DNA of 38,947 nt, taken from the NCBI GenBank assembly GCA_009784085.1, contig WRCJ01000003.1:1-38947 (forward strand). The letters are read 5' to 3'. The translations under genes and the position numbers were made by a program. The DNA comes from Oscillospiraceae bacterium. GTDB taxonomy: Bacteria > Bacillota > Clostridia > Oscillospirales > UBA929. The stretch's first letter is position 1. Every line of letters begins with the position of its first letter. Below are positions 14,081 to 38,947 of the stretch, piece after piece. Below the pieces are notes generated by a model that worked only from the letters and a program-made list of their open reading frames with translations, was not told the DNA's origin and did not search any database.

Positions 14081-14109
14081 TTGCGGCAGGTGTCTTTCTG
14101 TGGTATAAT
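14081..14109 (+). promoter_or_regulatory. Sigma-A-type promoter of the SBP/permease operon
   Basis: TTGCGG (14081-14086), exactly 17 bp, TATAAT (14104-14109). Confidence 0.7.
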
Positions 14110-14155
14110 GGTGACACCGATAGGGATGAAAATAATATTGAATCGAGGGCTTTTG

Positions 14156-15556
14156 ATGACCAAAACCGTGCGCTGGGTGGCCGTTGTTGTCGCCACCGCG
14201 ATGCTGTGCGGGTCGATGTTAGCCGTTCTGGCGGGCTGCGACGGCGACGGCGGTGGCGGTGGCGGAGGATTTATCGACCCTATTCCGCAGACCAAGGTGG
14301 ATTTGACGCCGACAGAGGAACTGGTGATTTATCTGCCGAGGTACAAATATTTTAACCCGATCTTTTCCAGAGCTGTGTCAAAGTTTATCGAGAAATACCA
14401 TGACGTAAATGTGACGGTGACGCAGATAGGGGAAGCGGACGAATACCCAAGCTCTACCAGCGCATACCAGCAACGCGTTAATAGCGAACTGATGGCCAAT
14501 TCAGGCCCGGACATCATCCTTACGCAGTATTTCGAAGACCTGTATAAAACCATGGACAGCGGAATGTTCCTCAACCTCACGGATATCATCTCGCAGGACG
14601 ATGAATTCAGCATGGCAGGGTGCAACGAGGTCGTCATGGATGTCGGCGTTTACAAAGGTGGGCGCTATGTTGTTCCCCTAACATATACCATACCGATCAT
14701 GCTGGGGGAACAGGGGGTACTTGACGCCGTCGGGTTTGACGCATCACAAAACACCGATTTCATTTCCTTTGTTAACCAGCTCACGGCCAGTTTCCCGAAA
14801 GCGGCTGAGAATGCCGCGTTCAATCGCATGACAAACTTCAATGCCTACAATTATTTTGATTACAGCGGCGTTCCGTTGGTGGATTACGAGCGCAAACAGG
14901 CGCTGCCCGACGAAGAAAGCTTTAAAACGCTCTGCGACTCGTATAAAGCGCACTGGGAAGCCGATAAGGTGGACGGTGTTTTCAATAACGGCTATTATTC
15001 TTCCTTAGTTGACGGATCGCATGTATTGATGTTTTATTGGGATGTGAGTTTGTTCGTTGATTGGGGTTGGTTGAGGGATTACGAGTACGCCCCGGTTTTG
15101 GCGGCGTTACACGCCATGGACGGTGGATTGGTCGCCACCGTGTCGCAGTCCGCAGCCATCCGCGCGGGAAGCCCCAACCAGCTCAACGCCTGGAACTTCA
15201 TTAAGATTTTACTGTCAGAAACCATCCAGTACTGTAAACCGAATACCCATGATGCCATAAGCCGTCATGGGTTTCCCGTAAACAAAACGGCGTTTGACCG
15301 TGAGCTTGACGGCATCTTGAAATATCAGGAAACGTTTAGCGCATTCGAAGATGATTTTACGGTGTCTGCGGTAACAGCGGAGGAAAAAGCCCCTTACGCG
15401 GCACTGCACAGGAGCATCACAAGCTGCAAGCTGGAGAATAGTACGCTCGCCGACTTTTTCTTCGAGAATATGACACCTTATTTTGAAGAACAGAAGAGCT
15501 ACGACGAGTGTGTCACCGAACTGATGGGCAAACTCAGGCTGTACATGTCTGAGTAG
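14156..15556 (+). CDS. Extracellular solute-binding lipoprotein (SBP1)
   Basis: Signal peptide with lipobox LAVLAGC; ABC sugar-binding-protein layout; the paralog lies at 18485-19954. Confidence 0.88.
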   Translation: MTKTVRWVAVVVATAMLCGSMLAVLAGCDGDGGGGGGGFIDPIPQTKVDLTPTEELVIYLPRYKYFNPIFSRAVSKFIEKYHDVNVTVTQIGEADEYPSSTSAYQQRVNSELMANSGPDIILTQYFEDLYKTMDSGMFLNLTDIISQDDEFSMAGCNEVVMDVGVYKGGRYVVPLTYTIPIMLGEQGVLDAVGFDASQNTDFISFVNQLTASFPKAAENAAFNRMTNFNAYNYFDYSGVPLVDYERKQALPDEESFKTLCDSYKAHWEADKVDGVFNNGYYSSLVDGSHVLMFYWDVSLFVDWGWLRDYEYAPVLAALHAMDGGLVATVSQSAAIRAGSPNQLNAWNFIKILLSETIQYCKPNTHDAISRHGFPVNKTAFDRELDGILKYQETFSAFEDDFTVSAVTAEEKAPYAALHRSITSCKLENSTLADFFFENMTPYFEEQKSYDECVTELMGKLRLYMSE

Positions 15557-15607
15557 GCGGCAACACGCAGGTTCATTATGAGCTACCACAAGGGGAGGGG
15601 ACACGGA

Positions 15608-16495
15608 ATGAAACGATTCACCCTGCGCCGCCGCGAGGCGCTGACCGGGCTGGGATTCGCCGCCGTGCCGCTGCTGGGCTTCGCGGCGTTCTATGTGGTC
15701 CCCTTCGGCATCACCGTCGCCAAAACCCTCTCGGGCGGCGTGTCGGGGTTCAACTTCACGGGCTTCTCCAACTACGTCAGCGTCTTGAACAGCGAAGCCT
15801 TCCGGCTGGCGGCGGGCAATACTTTCAAGTTCATCGGCGTGGGCGTGCCGCTGCTGATGGCGCTATCGCTGGGCGTGGCGTTGTTGCTCAACATGCGGCT
15901 CCGGGGCGGCCGCCGCATCCGGGGCGGCGACGGGTTCAGGGCGGCCTATGTGCTGCCGCTGGTGCTGCCTACCGCCTCGGTGATCCTGGTGTTCGAGATC
16001 CTGTTCGAAAGCGGCGGCGCCATCAATTACGCGCTGGACAAGCTGGGGCTGGAACCGGTCAATTTCCTGCGCTCGCCGAACACCTTCTGGATACTGCTGT
16101 TGCTCTTTATCTGGAAGAACATCGGCTACGGCATTATCCTCATGCTGGGCGGCTTGGTCCAAATCCCCAAAGAATACTACGAAGCCGCCCGGGCAGATGG
16201 CGCGGGCGGCTTTACCTGCCTGCGCCGGATCACGTTGCCGCTGATGGCCCCCACCTTCCTGTTCGTGACCGTGATCTCCATCGTGGGGGCGTTCAAGTCC
16301 TTCCGCGAAGCTTTCGCCCTGGCTGGGGCCTACCCGCACGAGAGCATCTATATGCTCCAACACTTCATGATCAACAACTTCGCGCGGCTGAATTACCCCC
16401 GCCTGTCGGTGGCCGCCGTGCTGACCTTCTTGGTGATATTCGCGTTCGTTTTAGTCCTATTTTTGCGGCGGGGCAAGGGCGGTGTGGCAGAATGA
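15608..16495 (+). CDS. Sugar ABC transporter permease (MalF/UgpA-like)
   Basis: Multiple TMs, EAA loop YYEAARADGAGGFTCLRRITLPLMAPTF; RBS ggggagggg. Confidence 0.93.
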   Translation: MKRFTLRRREALTGLGFAAVPLLGFAAFYVVPFGITVAKTLSGGVSGFNFTGFSNYVSVLNSEAFRLAAGNTFKFIGVGVPLLMALSLGVALLLNMRLRGGRRIRGGDGFRAAYVLPLVLPTASVILVFEILFESGGAINYALDKLGLEPVNFLRSPNTFWILLLLFIWKNIGYGIILMLGGLVQIPKEYYEAARADGAGGFTCLRRITLPLMAPTFLFVTVISIVGAFKSFREAFALAGAYPHESIYMLQHFMINNFARLNYPRLSVAAVLTFLVIFAFVLVLFLRRGKGGVAE

Positions 16496-17331
16496 CCAGG
16501 CGTACCCTCATATACTCGGCCCTCGGCCTGCTGGCGGTGATGACCCTGTTCCCGCTTCTCTACATGGTCACCAACTCCTTCATGGGGGGGGCGGAATACT
16601 ACCGCTACTACGGCAACCTGCCCCAGGGGCTGTCCGGGCGCAACCCGATGCACTTGATCCCGGAATGGATCACGCTGGACGGGTACTGGGAGATACTGTT
16701 TTCACGGCCCCAGTACCTGGTGAAGTTCTGGTCCTCGCTTTTTCTCAGCGGCACCATCCTGGCAGGGCAGATGGTCGTGGCGGTGCTGGGGGGCTACGCC
16801 TTCGCCCGGTTCCGGTTCCCGGGGCGCAACGCCATCTTCTTCTTGATCATCCTGCTCATGATGATGCCCCTTCAGGTCACGCTGGTACCCAATTACATTG
16901 TGCTGGAACAATTGGGGCTGGTCGGCGGGTACGCGGCGGTCATCTTGCCGGGCGTGTTCTCGGCTTTCGGGGTGTTCCTGATGCGGCAGGTCATGTTGAC
17001 CCTCCCCCCCGAAATGTTTGAAGCCGCCCGGTTGGACGGCGCGGGGTCGTGGAGGGCATTATGGCGGATCTGCCTGCCCAACTGCAAATCCGGCCTCGCG
17101 GCGCTTGCCATTTTGAGCTTTGCCGACAGTTGGAACATGGTAGAGCAACCGGTGGTGTTTTTGAAGGACGCCAATATGTACCCCATGAGCGTGTTCTTGA
17201 CGCAAGTCAACGCCATGCGCCCCGAGGCGGGGTTCGCCTGCGGCCTGCTGTCGGTGGCGCCCGCGCTGTTGCTGTTCCTGCGGTTCAAGGACGAAATGGT
17301 GATGGGCATTGAATATTCGGCGGTGAAGTGA
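16492..17331 (+). CDS. Sugar ABC transporter permease (MalG/UgpE-like)
   Basis: EAA loop MFEAARLDGAGSWRALWRICLPNCKSGLAAL; overlaps the first permease by 4 nt. Confidence 0.93.
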   Translation: MTRRTLIYSALGLLAVMTLFPLLYMVTNSFMGGAEYYRYYGNLPQGLSGRNPMHLIPEWITLDGYWEILFSRPQYLVKFWSSLFLSGTILAGQMVVAVLGGYAFARFRFPGRNAIFFLIILLMMMPLQVTLVPNYIVLEQLGLVGGYAAVILPGVFSAFGVFLMRQVMLTLPPEMFEAARLDGAGSWRALWRICLPNCKSGLAALAILSFADSWNMVEQPVVFLKDANMYPMSVFLTQVNAMRPEAGFACGLLSVAPALLLFLRFKDEMVMGIEYSAVK

Positions 17332-17373
17332 CCGCCGCAAGGGGGCGGTCGCCAACCGCCCGCGGAGGGTATC

Positions 17374-18459
17374 ATGAAAAAAGCGGTTAGGATCATCACG
17401 GTGGCCGGCCTTGTCCTGTTGGCCGTCCTCACCTTTGTCTCGCGGTCGATATACAACAAGAACCTGCCCCAGGTCACTGCCGCCAAACTGGACGTGGGGC
17501 TAGTCCCCCTGACGTGGGAGACGGTCGGGGCCCTCGAATACCCCGGCGCGGCTACTCTCAAGGCAGGGGGGACCTGGACGGTAAGCGAGGTGTTTGTCAA
17601 GGACGGGGACGTAGTGCGCGTAGGCGACTTGCTGTGCAGTTTTGACACGCGGGTCTTCGACATGGACAGGCAGGCGATGGAACTGGAAGTCCTGCGGCTA
17701 CAAAACGCGCTGGCCGCGATGGACGACTGGCGGCCTCAAAGCGCCGCGGAACGCCGCGCCAAATCGTACCAGCAATCCGAAACCACCGCGTCGCTGGAAC
17801 TGGCCGAGCAGCGGCTTGCGTATGCCCTCTCCCAGGCGCCGCCGGGAAATGGGCTGCACACGGACTGCGCCGGCGCGGTGTACGGCCTTGCGATGGAGCC
17901 GGGGGACACGCTCCTTTTTGGGGACGCCCTGCTGTCCATCCTGCCCGACGAGCTGCCCGAACTCGAATTCTCCCTGCCGCCCAAGGAAGGGGAGGCTTTC
18001 GGTCCCGGCGTGATAGTCCAGGCCCAAGTGGCGACCATCCGGCGGGACAACGAAGGCAAAACGGTGTTTGCCCGCCAGGCCGTATCGGGGCAGGTGTTCA
18101 GCAGCGTGCTGCGTGGCGGCCAATGGGAGTGCCGGGCTCGCCTCAATGCCTTTGAGGGCGCGCCCGTGGCCGGCCAGGAGGTGCCCCTGAAGGTGACCCA
18201 GCCAGGGGAGACGCAGAACTATATGGCCCCCCTGGGCTGTCTGTTCGAATGGGAAAACCAAAAGATAGTGTATGAGATCGCCCGCCGCCCCGGGCTGTTT
18301 GGCGAGGAAAACTACCTGACCGCGGTGGTCGTGGAGGTGCTGTACGACAACGGGAAACATGTATCGCTGGTGGGCGATAGGCTCCACTGGCAAATGCCAT
18401 TGGCGGAAAACATTTCCCAGCCGGTGATTGACGGGGACGTAGTTTGGGTGCGGGATTGA
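17374..18459 (+). CDS. HlyD/membrane-fusion-protein-like adaptor
   Basis: One N-terminal TM, biotinyl-lipoyl-like GGTWTVSEVFVKDGDVVRVGDLLCSFD, short coiled coil, beta-barrel-like C-terminus. Confidence 0.72.
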   Translation: MKKAVRIITVAGLVLLAVLTFVSRSIYNKNLPQVTAAKLDVGLVPLTWETVGALEYPGAATLKAGGTWTVSEVFVKDGDVVRVGDLLCSFDTRVFDMDRQAMELEVLRLQNALAAMDDWRPQSAAERRAKSYQQSETTASLELAEQRLAYALSQAPPGNGLHTDCAGAVYGLAMEPGDTLLFGDALLSILPDELPELEFSLPPKEGEAFGPGVIVQAQVATIRRDNEGKTVFARQAVSGQVFSSVLRGGQWECRARLNAFEGAPVAGQEVPLKVTQPGETQNYMAPLGCLFEWENQKIVYEIARRPGLFGEENYLTAVVVEVLYDNGKHVSLVGDRLHWQMPLAENISQPVIDGDVVWVRD

Positions 18460-18484
18460 CATCTTTAATTGTGTTAGCGAGGAA

Positions 18485-19954
18485 GTGAAAGGTATGTGCA
18501 GAACAAGCATGTGCAGAACAAGGATGGGTAGCGGCGGCCTGAAAAAGCGGCGGTCGGACATCCCGGCGCGAACGACGCGTAAACGCTTGGGGGCCGTTTC
18601 CCTGGCCGCCGCATTGCTAATGGGCCTATTACTGGTGGTCGCGGGGTGTCAACCGAGCAACAATATTGTCAACCCCATCCCCGACACGCCCATTGACTTG
18701 ACGCCAACGGACGAATTGGTGCTATATCTGCCGGGCTACCAGTTTTTAGACCCTGGGTTCATGGCCGCCGTGAAGGCCTTTGAAAATACGTATCCAGGCG
18801 TGAAGGTAACTGTCGAGGTAATCGGCGCCCCGGACAGGGTGCCTGAAGGTGACTACCAAACCCGTATCAACACGGAAGCGATGGCCGGCACCGGGCCTGA
18901 TGTCTTCCTAACGAGTTACTTTTTTGACATGTATGAAACCATGGAATTGGGCGCATATCTCAACTTGGAGCCAATCATAGCTGAAGATGAGGACTTTGCT
19001 CTGGAAGATTATAACGGCACAGTGATGGATGCGGGGGTTTACAAGGGCGGGCGTTATATCATCCCGCTGAAATATTATCTGCCCATATTGCTGACAGAAC
19101 AGGGGATTTTGGACGACATTGGATTTGATATAGCCCAAGACGTCAATTTTATTTCCTTTTTCAATGAAGTCGCGGACAGTTTGCCAAAAGCGCGGGAAAA
19201 CCCCTCTTTTATCCGACTGCTCGGTGATAGGATTGCGTATGAATTTACACAGATAGCGGGGGTATCTTTGATAGACCGGGAACGTGAGATCATTTTACCG
19301 GACGAGAAGGGGCTGCGCGCCGTTTGCGAATCGTATAAGCCCTATTGGGTCATCGATTCCCTCCGCGACGACCAAGCGACTACATTCGGTGGAAATGTAT
19401 GGTCGGTTATCCAAGAGGGCGCGATTGTTTTTGGCGAATATCAATTAGATATATTTAATACGGTTTTTGACTTGAGCCAAATGAAAGCCACAGGGTATAC
19501 GCCGGTGTTGTCAGCCATACGCCGTGCGGACGGCGGGTTAAACGCCTCCGTAGGCCAGAGCGTGGCGATCCGCGCCGGTAGCCCCAACCAGCTCAACGCA
19601 TGGAGATATATCAAGATCCTGCTGTCCGAGTCCATGCAGAATGGCGGATCTGACATCGCAAGGAGTTGTGGTTTCCCGGTCAACAAGGCGGCTTTACGCC
19701 GTGAACTTGATGGAATCCTTAAAGAAGATACGCTTATCAATACCCCGGAAGGAAAACGGATATTCCAAGCGGTACCTTGGTCGGATAAGGAACCGTATCT
19801 GGTATTGCATGAAAGCATTACGAGCTGCACGTTGCCTGATATGGCGACAAATTGGCTCTATAGTTCCATGAAGCCTTGGTTCGACGGCAAGAAGAGCTAC
19901 GAAGATTGCCTGGAAGATCTGCGGCAGAGACTGACTCTTTATTTCTCTGAATAG
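18485..19954 (+). CDS. Extracellular solute-binding lipoprotein (SBP2, paralog of SBP1)
   Basis: Lipobox LLVVAGC. Shares with SBP1 NPIPDTPIDLTPTDELVLYLP, GVYKGGRY, QS.AIRAGSPNQLNAW, the GFPVNK region and the ITSC..KSY..C tail. Confidence 0.88.
   Translation: MKGMCRTSMCRTRMGSGGLKKRRSDIPARTTRKRLGAVSLAAALLMGLLLVVAGCQPSNNIVNPIPDTPIDLTPTDELVLYLPGYQFLDPGFMAAVKAFENTYPGVKVTVEVIGAPDRVPEGDYQTRINTEAMAGTGPDVFLTSYFFDMYETMELGAYLNLEPIIAEDEDFALEDYNGTVMDAGVYKGGRYIIPLKYYLPILLTEQGILDDIGFDIAQDVNFISFFNEVADSLPKARENPSFIRLLGDRIAYEFTQIAGVSLIDREREIILPDEKGLRAVCESYKPYWVIDSLRDDQATTFGGNVWSVIQEGAIVFGEYQLDIFNTVFDLSQMKATGYTPVLSAIRRADGGLNASVGQSVAIRAGSPNQLNAWRYIKILLSESMQNGGSDIARSCGFPVNKAALRRELDGILKEDTLINTPEGKRIFQAVPWSDKEPYLVLHESITSCTLPDMATNWLYSSMKPWFDGKKSYEDCLEDLRQRLTLYFSE
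18494..18523. repeat. 15-bp tandem repeat x2 at the SBP2 N-terminus
   Basis: atgtgcagaacaagc atgtgcagaacaagg (MCRTSMCRTR). Confidence 0.9.
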
Positions 19955-34209: not shown

Positions 34210-34239
34210 CGCCGCCCCCTTCCAAGGAAGGGGGCGGCG
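34210..34239. terminator. Hairpin between convergent smr-like and SLH-SBP genes
   Basis: gccgcccccttcc-aa-ggaagggggcggc near-perfect palindrome; no clear T tract. Confidence 0.5.
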
Positions 34240-34256
34240 CGAAGTTCCGAGGTTTG

Positions 34257-36080
34257 TCAGCCCAGTGCGGCCACCCTTGCGTTCATGGCGGCAATGGCGT
34301 CGTCGATGCTCTTCTCGCCCAACAAGATGCATTCATGCTCTTCGATGAGGATCGTTTCGATGTCGTAGCACTTGTCATGCATGGGCATCTCCAGATAGAC
34401 CTTGTTGACCTTGAGGGCTTCTTTGCTGTTGGCGTCGCCGGGGAAGCCGGCCATGGAAGCCAGGAGGTTCACGACCATGTCGTTCTTGACAGCCGGGAAA
34501 TGGCCGACGCTGGCCAGCACGGCCGCGCCCTTATCGCCGCAAACAAACTTCATGAAGTCAATGGCGACTTCTTTTCTCCGCACTCCGGAGTTCTTGTTGA
34601 CCGCCAGGCTCGTGATGGTACCCAGCGTCGTGCCGGCCGCAACGCCGGCCGGATGGGGGTACTTCACGATGCCCCAAGCATTCGGCGTTTCAATTTCTGC
34701 AATCGCGCATGCGGTGATCAGCGGGGGGATGAACCAGGTTCCCATGTTGAGCATGGCGATCTGGCCGCTGTAGAAGGCGCCGGTGTAGTGCATGCTCGAA
34801 GCCCTGATGTCGGCCAGCGTCATGACAATGCCGTCATCTTGCTGCTTGGTGACCATCTCGTAGGTGGGCTTCATGAAGTTGTAATTGCCGTCCACGATGG
34901 TATGCTGGCCGTCCAGGATGGAGAACAGGGACGAGGCGCTGCGCCAGCCGTGGTAATGGGCGCCGTAGATCTTGTTCGCACCGGAACCGCTGGTAAGCCT
35001 GCGGGCCAATGCGTCATATTCCTCCATGGTCATGTCGTTGGTGGGATAGGCCACGTCGGCCGCGTCAAAGATATCCTTATTATAGTACAAAACCCAGAAG
35101 TCCTGCTTAAAAGGCAGCGCGTAGAACTCGCCGCCGACACTGATCTGCTCAAGCACGCCGTTGTAAAGCGATTTGTTGATGCCATAGCCGGACAGCGGCT
35201 CCAAGCGGTTTTGTTTGATCAGGTTGGCGTAACCGGGCATGTTGTCCCTGATGGTCAGGACGTCATAGTCGGCGCCGCCGGACAGCCGCGTGGCCATGTC
35301 GTACATAAAGTCGCCGTTGTTAGGGAGGTCGACGACCTCGATGGTCACCCAAGGATTCATGGCCGTATAGGCGGCAATCAGCGGGCGGTAATAGGCCGTG
35401 GTGGCGTAATCGAACAGGCACCACTTGATGGTCACGGGGGCGTTGCCGCCGGTGGCGACCAGGAAGTTCGCGAATAGCTGCGCGATTTCCGCCCGGAGCA
35501 TGTACCCCCTGGGGTCGAAGCGGTTGCCCGGCCTGCCGTTGATGATGCCGGCGTCACGCAGCCGATAGACTTGCTCGCGCGCCCAGGTGTTGATCAGCGC
35601 ATCGTCGGCAAACGGCGCGCCCTTGCTCGCGGGCGACAGCGCGATGCCCTTGATCTTGATATAGTTGTCGAGCAGCACCGCCATCTCCTGGCGGGTGATG
35701 AGCCGTCCCGGCATGAAATTGCCCTTGCCATCGCCGGAAATAAAGCCGCGCGCGCTCGCCCATGCCACGGCCGGCGTATACCATTTGCCGTTCGGCACGT
35801 CGTTGAAACCCGACGTCTTGTAGCCGGACAAATCCGCGCCGTCCAACTTGGCGAGGATCGCGGCGGCCTCCAGGCGCGTGAACTGATTGTTAGGCATAAA
35901 GTTGCCCTTGCCGTCGCCCGCCATGATGCCGCTTGCCTGCAGGGTATACACGGCGTCGGCATACCAGCTGTTGTTGGGGACATCGTTGTACAGTTGCCGG
36001 GTTTCCTGTGCTGTTGCCGTGCCGCCGACGAGCCCCAGCAGGAGGGCTGCTGCCATCAGGATTGATACTGCTTTCTTCAT
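34257..36080 (-). CDS. Fusion protein: signal peptide, three SLH-like domains, extracellular solute-binding domain
   Basis: SLH-like units YNDVPNNSWYADAVYTLQASGIMAGDGKGNFMPNNQFTRLEAAAIL, FNDVPNGKWYTPAVAWASARGFISGDGKGNFMPGRLITRQEMAVLL, FADDALINTWAREQVYRLRDAGIINGRPGNRFDPRGYMLRAEIAQLF; then an SBP domain (DFWVLYYNKDIFDAADVAYPTNDMTMEEYDALARRL). Confidence 0.9.
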   Translation of the reverse strand: MKKAVSILMAAALLLGLVGGTATAQETRQLYNDVPNNSWYADAVYTLQASGIMAGDGKGNFMPNNQFTRLEAAAILAKLDGADLSGYKTSGFNDVPNGKWYTPAVAWASARGFISGDGKGNFMPGRLITRQEMAVLLDNYIKIKGIALSPASKGAPFADDALINTWAREQVYRLRDAGIINGRPGNRFDPRGYMLRAEIAQLFANFLVATGGNAPVTIKWCLFDYATTAYYRPLIAAYTAMNPWVTIEVVDLPNNGDFMYDMATRLSGGADYDVLTIRDNMPGYANLIKQNRLEPLSGYGINKSLYNGVLEQISVGGEFYALPFKQDFWVLYYNKDIFDAADVAYPTNDMTMEEYDALARRLTSGSGANKIYGAHYHGWRSASSLFSILDGQHTIVDGNYNFMKPTYEMVTKQQDDGIVMTLADIRASSMHYTGAFYSGQIAMLNMGTWFIPPLITACAIAEIETPNAWGIVKYPHPAGVAAGTTLGTITSLAVNKNSGVRRKEVAIDFMKFVCGDKGAAVLASVGHFPAVKNDMVVNLLASMAGFPGDANSKEALKVNKVYLEMPMHDKCYDIETILIEEHECILLGEKSIDDAIAAMNARVAALG

Positions 36081-36262
36081 TGTGATCTACTCCTCTTCTT
36101 TTTATGCGGAGCCGTAGCAATATATCCTGTTCGAATAGTAGGAATACTGTTGCCGTTTGATGCAAAAATGACAACTGCTAGCTCCGAATGTTGCAATAAC
36201 TATATCATCTGTCTGGCACGGCGTCAAGGGGGAGATGTAAAAATTTTCCACGGCACCCCACG

Positions 36263-36370: not shown

Positions 36371-37483
36371 TTACGGCGTGGGAAAATCAACATCGTCATC
36401 CTTCGACTCATAGAAATACTCGATTTGTTTTTGCGTTACGCCGTTTGGAAGAGACTTGCGCCTTGCTAACCGTTCCTGTGCCTCAATCAGTATCGCTTTG
36501 ATTTTTGTTTCAAATTCGTCCTTGGGCGGTAGATGCGTCCAATATTCCGCGACAGCAATGCCCGCCCTATCCATTTCAAGTAGTTCTATCTTTTCGCGGC
36601 TGGCGGTTGCGCAAAGGATCAGGCCAATCGGAGATCCTTCTCCCTCTTGACGCTCATATCTATCGAGCCATTTCAAATACAGCTCCATTTGCCCTTTATA
36701 AGCCGCCTGGAATACGCCGAGCTTCAGTTCGACGGCTATCAATCTTTTCATTATCCTGTGATAGAACAGCAAATCAAGAACAATATCCTCGCCGTCAATA
36801 ATCATGCGTTTCTGGCGTTCGGCAAACGTGAAGCCGTGACCGAATTCAAGTAAAAACGATTCAAGCTCCATGAGTATCGCTTTTTCCAAATCCGCTTCGG
36901 CAAAATTATCATTCAATCCGAACAAATCAAGAAGATATGGGTCTTTGAATACGTTAAGCGGAACAGCGGATTCTTCCGACAATTTGGTGTTTGCTATTTC
37001 CCGGCGTTCATATGCTTTGCGTGCTATTTGGCGGCGAAGCTCCTTTGTGCCGTAGTTCCGCATTGCTGTGTCGTTCGCGTAATACATACGCGCTTCGTCT
37101 GTTCTTAGCGGCAACAGCTCAATGATGTGCGACCAGCTTAATTTTGCCGCCAGCGGCGGCAAAATCTCTGCATCTGGGAAACGCTCCGCAAATAAGGTCA
37201 TTCTATATAGATTTCGTTCCGTGAAACTCCTTCCGTATTTTGCCGTCAATTTTGTCGCCAGCTCCGTCAAAATCTTTTTACCGTATGCGGCGCGCTTATT
37301 GCCAAGAACAATCGAGTTGATATACTGCCCGACCTCCCAAAACATCATAGTTGTTTCTTGATTGGCATGAGTCATTGCTCGATACTTGCGACTCTCGATG
37401 ATTTCGGACACACGAGCAAAAAGCAGACTCTCGTCAACTTGAGGATCGTTTGCCAAAGCGATCTCCTGTTTTTTCTTGCTCAT
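36371..37483 (-). CDS. DUF1016/YhcG-family PDDEXK nuclease-like protein
   Basis: MMFWEVGQYINSIV..LSWSHIIELLPL..EARMYYAN..YLLDLFGL..EDIVLDLLFYHRIMKRLIAVELKLGVFQAAYKGQMELYLKWLDRYE. Confidence 0.92.
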   Translation of the reverse strand: MSKKKQEIALANDPQVDESLLFARVSEIIESRKYRAMTHANQETTMMFWEVGQYINSIVLGNKRAAYGKKILTELATKLTAKYGRSFTERNLYRMTLFAERFPDAEILPPLAAKLSWSHIIELLPLRTDEARMYYANDTAMRNYGTKELRRQIARKAYERREIANTKLSEESAVPLNVFKDPYLLDLFGLNDNFAEADLEKAILMELESFLLEFGHGFTFAERQKRMIIDGEDIVLDLLFYHRIMKRLIAVELKLGVFQAAYKGQMELYLKWLDRYERQEGEGSPIGLILCATASREKIELLEMDRAGIAVAEYWTHLPPKDEFETKIKAILIEAQERLARRKSLPNGVTQKQIEYFYESKDDDVDFPTP

Positions 37484-37489
37484 GTCTTG

Positions 37490-38947
37490 CTACCGCCCAT
37501 CGCCTTCCAGGCCCAGCTCCCGCGTCGCCTGTTCGCGCAGTTTGTACTTGAGGATCTTGCCGGCGGCATTCATGGGCAACTCATCGATGAAGAGGACATA
37601 GGAGGGAACCTTGTGGCGCGAGATGTTATGTGCCGCAAAGGCTAAGATGTCCTCTTTGTCCACGCTGGCGCCCTCGCGTCGGATGACAAAGGCGCACACC
37701 TCCTCGCCGAATTTGCGGGAGGGCACGGCCACCACCTGCACATCTTTGACGCCGGGGCAGGTGTACAGCAGCTCCTCGATCTCCCGGGGGTAGATGTTTT
37801 CGCCGCCCCGGATGATCATATCCTTGATGCGCCCCGTGATGGTGTAGTAACCGTTTTCGTCGCAGGACCCCAAGTCGCCGGTGTGCAGCCATCCCTCTTC
37901 GTCGATGACCGCCGCCGTCGCCTCGGGCATGTTGTAGTATCCACGCATCAGCAGGTAGCCCCGGGTACAGATCTCCCCCTGCACCCCTGGCGGGACTTCC
38001 AACCCGGTTTCGGGATCCACAATCTTGCCCTCGGTGTGGGGCAACAGCTGCCCCACGGTGGATACGCGTAGCTCGACGGGGTCGTCGGTGTGCGACGTGG
38101 TCATGCCGGGGGAGGATTCGGTCTGGCCGTAGGTGATGACAATATCCCGCATGTTCATTTTGTCGATAACCTGCCGCATGACCTCTATCGGGCAGGTGGA
38201 TCCGGCCATGATACCGGTGCGCAGGCTGGTCAGGTCATACTTTTCAAAGTCAGGGTGTTCCAGGATAAAGATGAACATGGTGGGCACGCCATAGACGCCG
38301 GTGCATCGCTCGGCCTGGATCGTTTCCATGACAGGGACGGGCGAGTAGATCTCCACCGGGACCATCGTGGACGCATGGGTGATGCAAGCCATTTGCGCCA
38401 GCACCATGCCGAAACAATGGAAGAACGGCACCGGGATGCACATGCGGTCGCGCGGGGAGAGTCTCATGCAGTCGCCGATGAACAGCCCGTTGTTGATGAT
38501 GTTGAAGTGGGTGAGCATGACGCCCTTGGGAAACCCGGTCGTGCCCGAGGTATATTGCATATTGCTGATATCTTCCCAGTGGACGCTGCGTTGGGCGGCG
38601 GCAAGCTCCTCATCCGAAACCTCTGCGCCCAGGGCCAGGATGTCGCCCCAGGTGAACAGCCCCTCTTGCGGGGCGGGGGATGCCTCCCCGGGAAGATGGA
38701 TGATATTGATGTCGCCCCAGGTGAACAGCCCCTCTTGCGGGGCGGGGGATGCCTCCCGGGGAAGATGGATGATATTCTTGAGCCTTGGCAATTTATCCGA
38801 GGCAAACGCGCCCGGCTCGCTGTCCTTCAGTTCTGGCAGGAGGTCGTTGAGGATAGACAGGTAATCTAGCCCCCGGGCGCCGTCGCAAAACAGAAGCGTC
38901 ATGGAGTCCGACTGGCGCAACAAGTATTCCAGCTCGAAACGCTTGTA
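37490..38947 (-). CDS. AMP-forming acyl-CoA synthetase (5' end outside window)
   Basis: MQYTSGTTGFPKGVMLTH, GYLLMRGYYNMPEATAAVIDEEGWLHTGDLG, GRIKDMIIRGGENIYPREIEELL; the frame stays open to the window edge (YKRFELEYLLRQSD). Confidence 0.95.
   Translation of the reverse strand, partial: YKRFELEYLLRQSDSMTLLFCDGARGLDYLSILNDLLPELKDSEPGAFASDKLPRLKNIIHLPREASPAPQEGLFTWGDINIIHLPGEASPAPQEGLFTWGDILALGAEVSDEELAAAQRSVHWEDISNMQYTSGTTGFPKGVMLTHFNIINNGLFIGDCMRLSPRDRMCIPVPFFHCFGMVLAQMACITHASTMVPVEIYSPVPVMETIQAERCTGVYGVPTMFIFILEHPDFEKYDLTSLRTGIMAGSTCPIEVMRQVIDKMNMRDIVITYGQTESSPGMTTSHTDDPVELRVSTVGQLLPHTEGKIVDPETGLEVPPGVQGEICTRGYLLMRGYYNMPEATAAVIDEEGWLHTGDLGSCDENGYYTITGRIKDMIIRGGENIYPREIEELLYTCPGVKDVQVVAVPSRKFGEEVCAFVIRREGASVDKEDILAFAAHNISRHKVPSYVLFIDELPMNAAGKILKYKLREQATRELGLEGDGR
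38639..38776. repeat. In-frame 69-bp tandem duplication in the acyl-CoA synthetase gene
   Basis: Two adjacent 69-bp copies (38639-38707 and 38708-38776) differing at one position; encodes NIIHLP[R/G]EASPAPQEGLFTWGDI twice. Confidence 0.95.

Follow-up and report, generated by a model that had tools for sequence, protein, structure and literature searches.

A solute-binding domain apparently duplicated from an oligosaccharide importer and fused to three S-layer homology repeats in an Oscillospiraceae bacterium

One gene of an Oscillospiraceae bacterium (assembly GCA_009784085.1) encodes a signal peptide, three S-layer homology (SLH) repeats, and a solute-binding protein (SBP) domain in a single frame. 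From sequence comparison, the protein is best read as a duplicated importer SBP in which the lipid anchor and a linker of ~50 residues were exchanged for a wall anchor. In monoderm bacteria, the usual view places SBP function at the membrane. We give about even chances to the explanation as a whole, in which the wall-anchored duplicate captures or buffers the importer's oligosaccharides. The gene lies on contig WRCJ01000003.1, analyzed over its full length of 38,947 nt (hereafter the window), and its features are given in Table 1.

Table 1. Features of the SLH-SBP fusion gene and its immediate flanks (window positions)
Feature	Position	Strand	Basis or remark
SLH-SBP fusion gene	34257..36080	(-)	ATG start, 607 aa, complete ORF
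Signal peptide, residues 1-24, AxA type, no lipobox Cys	36009..36080	(-)	Judged by eye
Three SLH repeats, residues 31-72, 92-133, 157-199	35484..35990	(-)	Pfam and genome-derived SLH profile
End of SLH3 and short linker, residues 200-213	35442..35483	(-)	Occupies the position of the C102 paralogue's lipobox and ~50-aa Pro/Thr/Asp-rich linker
SBP domain, residues 214-607, part homologous to C102 lipoprotein SBP	34260..35441	(-)	Pfam, phmmer, model
Promoter-like site TTGACG-17-TATAGT, sigma-70-like, 118 nt before ATG	36199..36227	(-)	Consensus match only
GC-rich 13-bp hairpin, strong, directly 3' of stop codon, no T-run	34210..34240	(-)	MFE -32.3 kcal/mol, z -2.6

Domain searches supported both halves of the protein. 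The initial annotation had described three N-terminal SLH domains joined to an SBP, and Pfam bears this out, with SLH matches on three stretches of the N-terminal part (E 2e-32) and SBP_bac_1 on residues 229-519 (E 5.4e-19; SBP_bac_8, E 2e-16). It had also described a signal peptide without a lipobox cysteine. Residue 221 is the first cysteine, which leaves the protein without a lipobox, and an Ala-Thr-Ala/Gln site resembling that of signal peptidase I was recognized by eye near residue 24. The ATG is preceded by GAGGAG, a putative ribosome-binding site. The gene is apparently monocistronic, with the hairpin after its stop codon as a possible transcript end, and is unlinked to the carbohydrate genes described below. 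As had been noted earlier, no permease adjoins it in the window. The nearest, at 15578-17331, lie within their own SBP cluster.

Several other genes of the window have features of their own. At window 14081-19954(+), that CUT1-type cluster consists of two different SBPs flanking two permeases and a Biotin_lipoyl-type protein, and the first of these SBPs is a weak match. Directly upstream of the fusion, a DUF1016/YhcG PDDEXK nuclease gene (window 36371-37483(-)) has a GC3 of 0.51 compared with ~0.8 in its neighbors and was probably acquired. An acyl-CoA ligase gene (window 37490-38923(-)) encodes a nearly perfect tandem repeat at residues ~55-95 (PREASPAPQEGLFTWGDI / PGEASPAPQEGLFTWGDI).

With an assembly as fragmented as this one (146 contigs, genome 87% complete), an SLH gene could have been joined to an SBP gene by artefact, but we find this extremely improbable. 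The gene is a single open frame inside a 39-kb contig, and both halves have the same, host-like GC3. The SBP half differs from the lipoprotein SBP on contig C102 (86% DNA identity) and is thus a separate, diverged copy rather than C102 sequence itself. The other SLH contigs examined carry repeats of only ~25-41% identity and yielded neither a near-identical donor of the SLH half nor one at the DNA level.

An SLH profile derived from repeats of this genome, two of the three fusion repeats among them, recovered three domains at the positions in Table 1 (each domain E <1e-10). The SLH half also matches Sap of Bacillus anthracis (E ~1e-19). Structure prediction, which the initial annotation had proposed for confirming domain boundaries, gave a good AlphaFold model of the SBP half alone. 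Most of the SLH half has pLDDT <50 in a model whose underlying alignment had no SLH relatives. The SLH half of the model is thus of low confidence, and its identity rests on sequence homology to Sap.

The genome also appears equipped for SLH anchoring. CsaB, the pyruvyl transferase responsible for the SLH ligand, is present at 247.9 bits against a curated cut-off of 213.1. We note that it forms the C-terminal part of a 774-aa protein (L053:1300-3624(-), contig C5), the N-terminal half of which is a GT4-type glycosyltransferase. At least 10 other SLH proteins are encoded, and no Omp85 was detected in the 87% complete genome. Three SLH repeats, an export signal without a lipobox, a CsaB, and no detected Omp85 together fit the class of wall-anchored SLH proteins. 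Because CsaB and the other SLH proteins are present and Omp85 was not detected, attachment of the fusion to the wall via its SLH repeats would be expected. The earlier proposal that it is anchored to secondary cell-wall polymer is in line with its repeats and with CsaB. A diderm reading, in which the protein would be peptidoglycan- or outer-membrane-linked, was rejected on the grounds of CsaB and the undetected Omp85.

The SBP half belongs to a known importer family. phmmer matched residues 215-605 to a Rhizobium etli protein, PDB 4rk2 (E 1e-112), and 4rk2 also ranked first when the model of this half was superposed on known structures (TM normalized to target 0.91, 46% identity). That structure shows an open conformation, and no ligand is named for it. 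By its SBP_bac_1 domain and fold, the fusion is a CUT1 (family 1) SBP. Two BPD permeases encoded with the SBP are usual in CUT1, though not universal, and a lipid anchor is the usual Gram-positive form. The fusion gene has neither, and its paralogue on contig C102 has both. Orthologues in the 4rk2 subfamily (R. etli RHE_PF00321) share the same SBP domain and, like the C102 gene, adjoin GH88, heparinase II/III, and two permeases. However, 4rk2 and all relatives examined are stand-alone SBPs, mostly in importer operons, whereas the fusion carries three SLH repeats, lacks a lipobox, and has no permease linked to it.

The C102 paralogue is a lipoprotein SBP with 80% protein identity to the SBP half of the fusion (79% over 395 aligned columns). 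Its N-terminus has a LAAC lipobox, then a ~50-residue linker rich in Pro, Thr, and Asp, and the gene order is lipoprotein SBP, permease, permease, GH2. For the GH2 protein, the nearest NCBIfam models include beta-glucuronidase, far below cut-off. The ends of contigs C102 and C59 (L045 and L055) share 292 nt at 97.9% identity, so the two are probably adjacent in the genome. The mismatches in this overlap suggest strain variation in the assembly. Contig C59 adds a GH106-like protein, a heparinase II/III-like lyase, and GH88 beside the importer.

Orthologues of the C102 SBP, with 50-61% identity in Treponema and Clostridia and ~45% on Rhizobium plasmids, are found in similar settings. These contain varying subsets of a two-component system, two permeases, GH88, heparinase II/III, GH2, DUF2264, a KduI-family protein, and a short-chain dehydrogenase. 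Because GH88, heparinase II/III, and similar genes surround these SBPs, the ligands of this importer type are most likely lyase-derived oligosaccharides containing unsaturated uronate, and possibly rhamnose. The GAG importer of Streptobacillus moniliformis resembles this arrangement in being SBP-dependent and encoded with a polysaccharide lyase, GH88, and an unsaturated-uronate pathway (PMC5430744). However, its SBP, Smon0123, is conventional, binds hyaluronan and chondroitin disaccharides, and was absent among the sequence relatives listed for the fusion. The initial annotation had suggested that the fusion may hand substrate to a permease encoded elsewhere. That permease would very probably be the C102 pair, which adjoins an SBP 80% identical to that of the fusion.

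We base the interpretation of duplication and anchor exchange on the identity of the two SBPs and on the limits of their homology, which starts at the SLH/SBP boundary of the fusion and ends at the stop codon. Congeners keep the HTH gene that lies downstream of the fusion, on the GlgB contig in three out of four. In the three congeners with enough flanking sequence, other genes are found beside the HTH gene and no SLH-SBP fusion. The fusion is thus lineage-specific, as far as these incomplete genomes show.

The two copies have diverged more in protein sequence than expected from their relatives. Between the fusion and the C102 SBP, dS was 0.25 and dN 0.125 (dN/dS 0.50), compared with dN/dS of 0.09-0.16 in close orthologue pairs, including 0.10 in a pair of similar dS and GC3 (L024/L028). 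At the same time, the SBP frame of the fusion is intact, with no stop or frameshift over ~160 differences, and non-synonymous changes are fewer overall than under neutrality (binomial p 3e-4). Both the ratio and the depletion test pool the branches of the two copies, and the pooled ratio alone is no proof of constraint on the fusion branch. The last 74 codons, with 26 non-synonymous and 6 synonymous differences, were indistinguishable from neutral. Derived changes were shared about evenly (31 in the fusion, 26 in the paralogue; p 0.51). Among columns invariant in relatives, nine were changed in the fusion alone (W223F, S255N, K278R, R325K, G342D, D401N, S433T, T453P, and M586L) and three in the paralogue alone, a difference that was not significant (p 0.15). 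Because these family-invariant columns are changed, the ligand or affinity of the fusion may be altered.

Alternatively, the fusion could have arisen recently by chance and be drifting, with hardly any function or none. Its high dN/dS, its near-neutral last codons, its occurrence in one genome only in the samples searched, and its absence beside the HTH gene in congeners with a readable flank would all fit. We nevertheless consider drift very unlikely, as the frame has stayed open, non-synonymous changes are depleted in the pooled comparison, and the promoter-like site, ribosome-binding site, and all three SLH repeats have been kept. Instead, both copies seem to have diverged after duplication with the fusion still constrained, and loss of function is not indicated. 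The raised dN/dS and the changes at invariant positions could also accompany a switch to a surface lectin or sensor, which would attach the cell to acidic polysaccharide or signal the presence of ligand and have no role in import. The gene has its own promoter-like site at an unlinked locus, and polysaccharide attachment is a common use of SLH proteins (PMC4765114). However, no partner signaling gene adjoins the fusion and many of its changes at invariant columns are conservative, so that we regard this switch as distinctly unlikely.

The combination of SLH and SBP domains is apparently rare, a new arrangement of known parts. The search for a second SLH-SBP_bac_1 fusion covered 97 relatives, plasmids, two Paenibacillaceae, and genomes at several ranks (391 from the class, 15 from the order, 18 from the family), along with 14 in the other-loci set. 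These samples overlap, and no such fusion was recognized in them. The architecture was thus not found to be common in the sample searched, which had been the reservation attached to the initial annotation. When the 391 class genomes were searched for the SBP subfamily, it turned up in ten more genomes, always as a single-SBP frame of 440-488 aa. Across the 18 family genomes (~125 SBPs), the SLH profile was negative on all 20 of the longer frames to which it was applied, a set that left out ~10 other frames of at least 570 aa. In the 15 order genomes, the majority of which are SLH-rich, and the two Paenibacillaceae, SBP and SLH never occurred in one frame among the matches listed, as judged by eye from coordinates and frame lengths. 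No plasmid record in a tblastn search spanned 80% of the query, and a literature search for SLH together with solute-binding protein had no match. Separately, SBP_bac_1 proteins of ~1000 aa recur in the family and in Paenibacillaceae (L079:905-3880(+), L080, L081, L082, and similar) and carry no SLH repeats. In several, the N-terminal signal peptide shows no clear lipobox, and some appear to adjoin permeases.

The proposed function follows these steps. The SBP part of a CUT1 oligosaccharide importer would have been copied behind a signal peptide and three SLH repeats, and the product would be exported and held by these repeats on pyruvylated secondary cell-wall polymer. There, the SBP domain may bind the importer's general class of oligosaccharides, which are lyase-made fragments containing uronate and possibly rhamnose. 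Kept at the wall, these could then be taken up by the C102 importer, through its lipoprotein SBP (80% identical) and permease pair. A more specific version is two-tier sugar import, with one SBP copy on the membrane and the other fixed in the wall to store or relay ligand, which we put forward tentatively. We know of no direct precedent for a wall-held SBP handing over to a membrane permease.

Direct docking of the fusion on a permease is possible but less natural. In that case, the fusion would be an alternative SBP for the C102 or other CUT1 permeases, with the wall replacing lipid in keeping it near the membrane. Its 80% identity to the cognate SBP would suit such a role, and the N-termini of some importer-operon relatives (L022, L026) also seem to be without a lipobox. 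Because the linker is very short, however, the SBP domain would stay by the wall polymer and not the membrane, and dN/dS between the copies is raised, so we think direct docking rather unlikely.

Capture or buffering at the wall has partial parallels in other systems. BslK of Bacillus anthracis passes heme on. Like the fusion, it is an SLH trimer bearing a small-ligand-binding domain, but this is a heme-binding NEAT domain of another fold and ligand and not a copy of an ABC importer's own SBP (PMC4143258, PMC7759979). In the Sulfolobus bindosome, sugar-binding SBPs are proposed to be retained within or close to the surface layer of the cell, but this archaeal system is tied to class III signal peptides and not SLH repeats (PMC2910488). 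A survey of Paenibacillus sp. JDR-2 found 29 SLH carbohydrate proteins, which were enzymes or carriers of binding modules, with none listed as having an SBP domain (PMC4765114). Its SLH enzymes are similar to the fusion as SLH-anchored, carbohydrate-acting proteins, and release oligosaccharides beside ABC importers (PMC4765114).

The fusion shows an SBP domain recruited as SLH cargo, a type unlisted in the JDR-2 survey (PMC4765114). With a constrained importer SBP on a wall anchor and a parent-type copy in the same genome, this bacterium offers a natural experiment on whether capture at the wall helps ABC import. If two-tier import is true, it would be a carbohydrate counterpart of wall-anchored heme relays.
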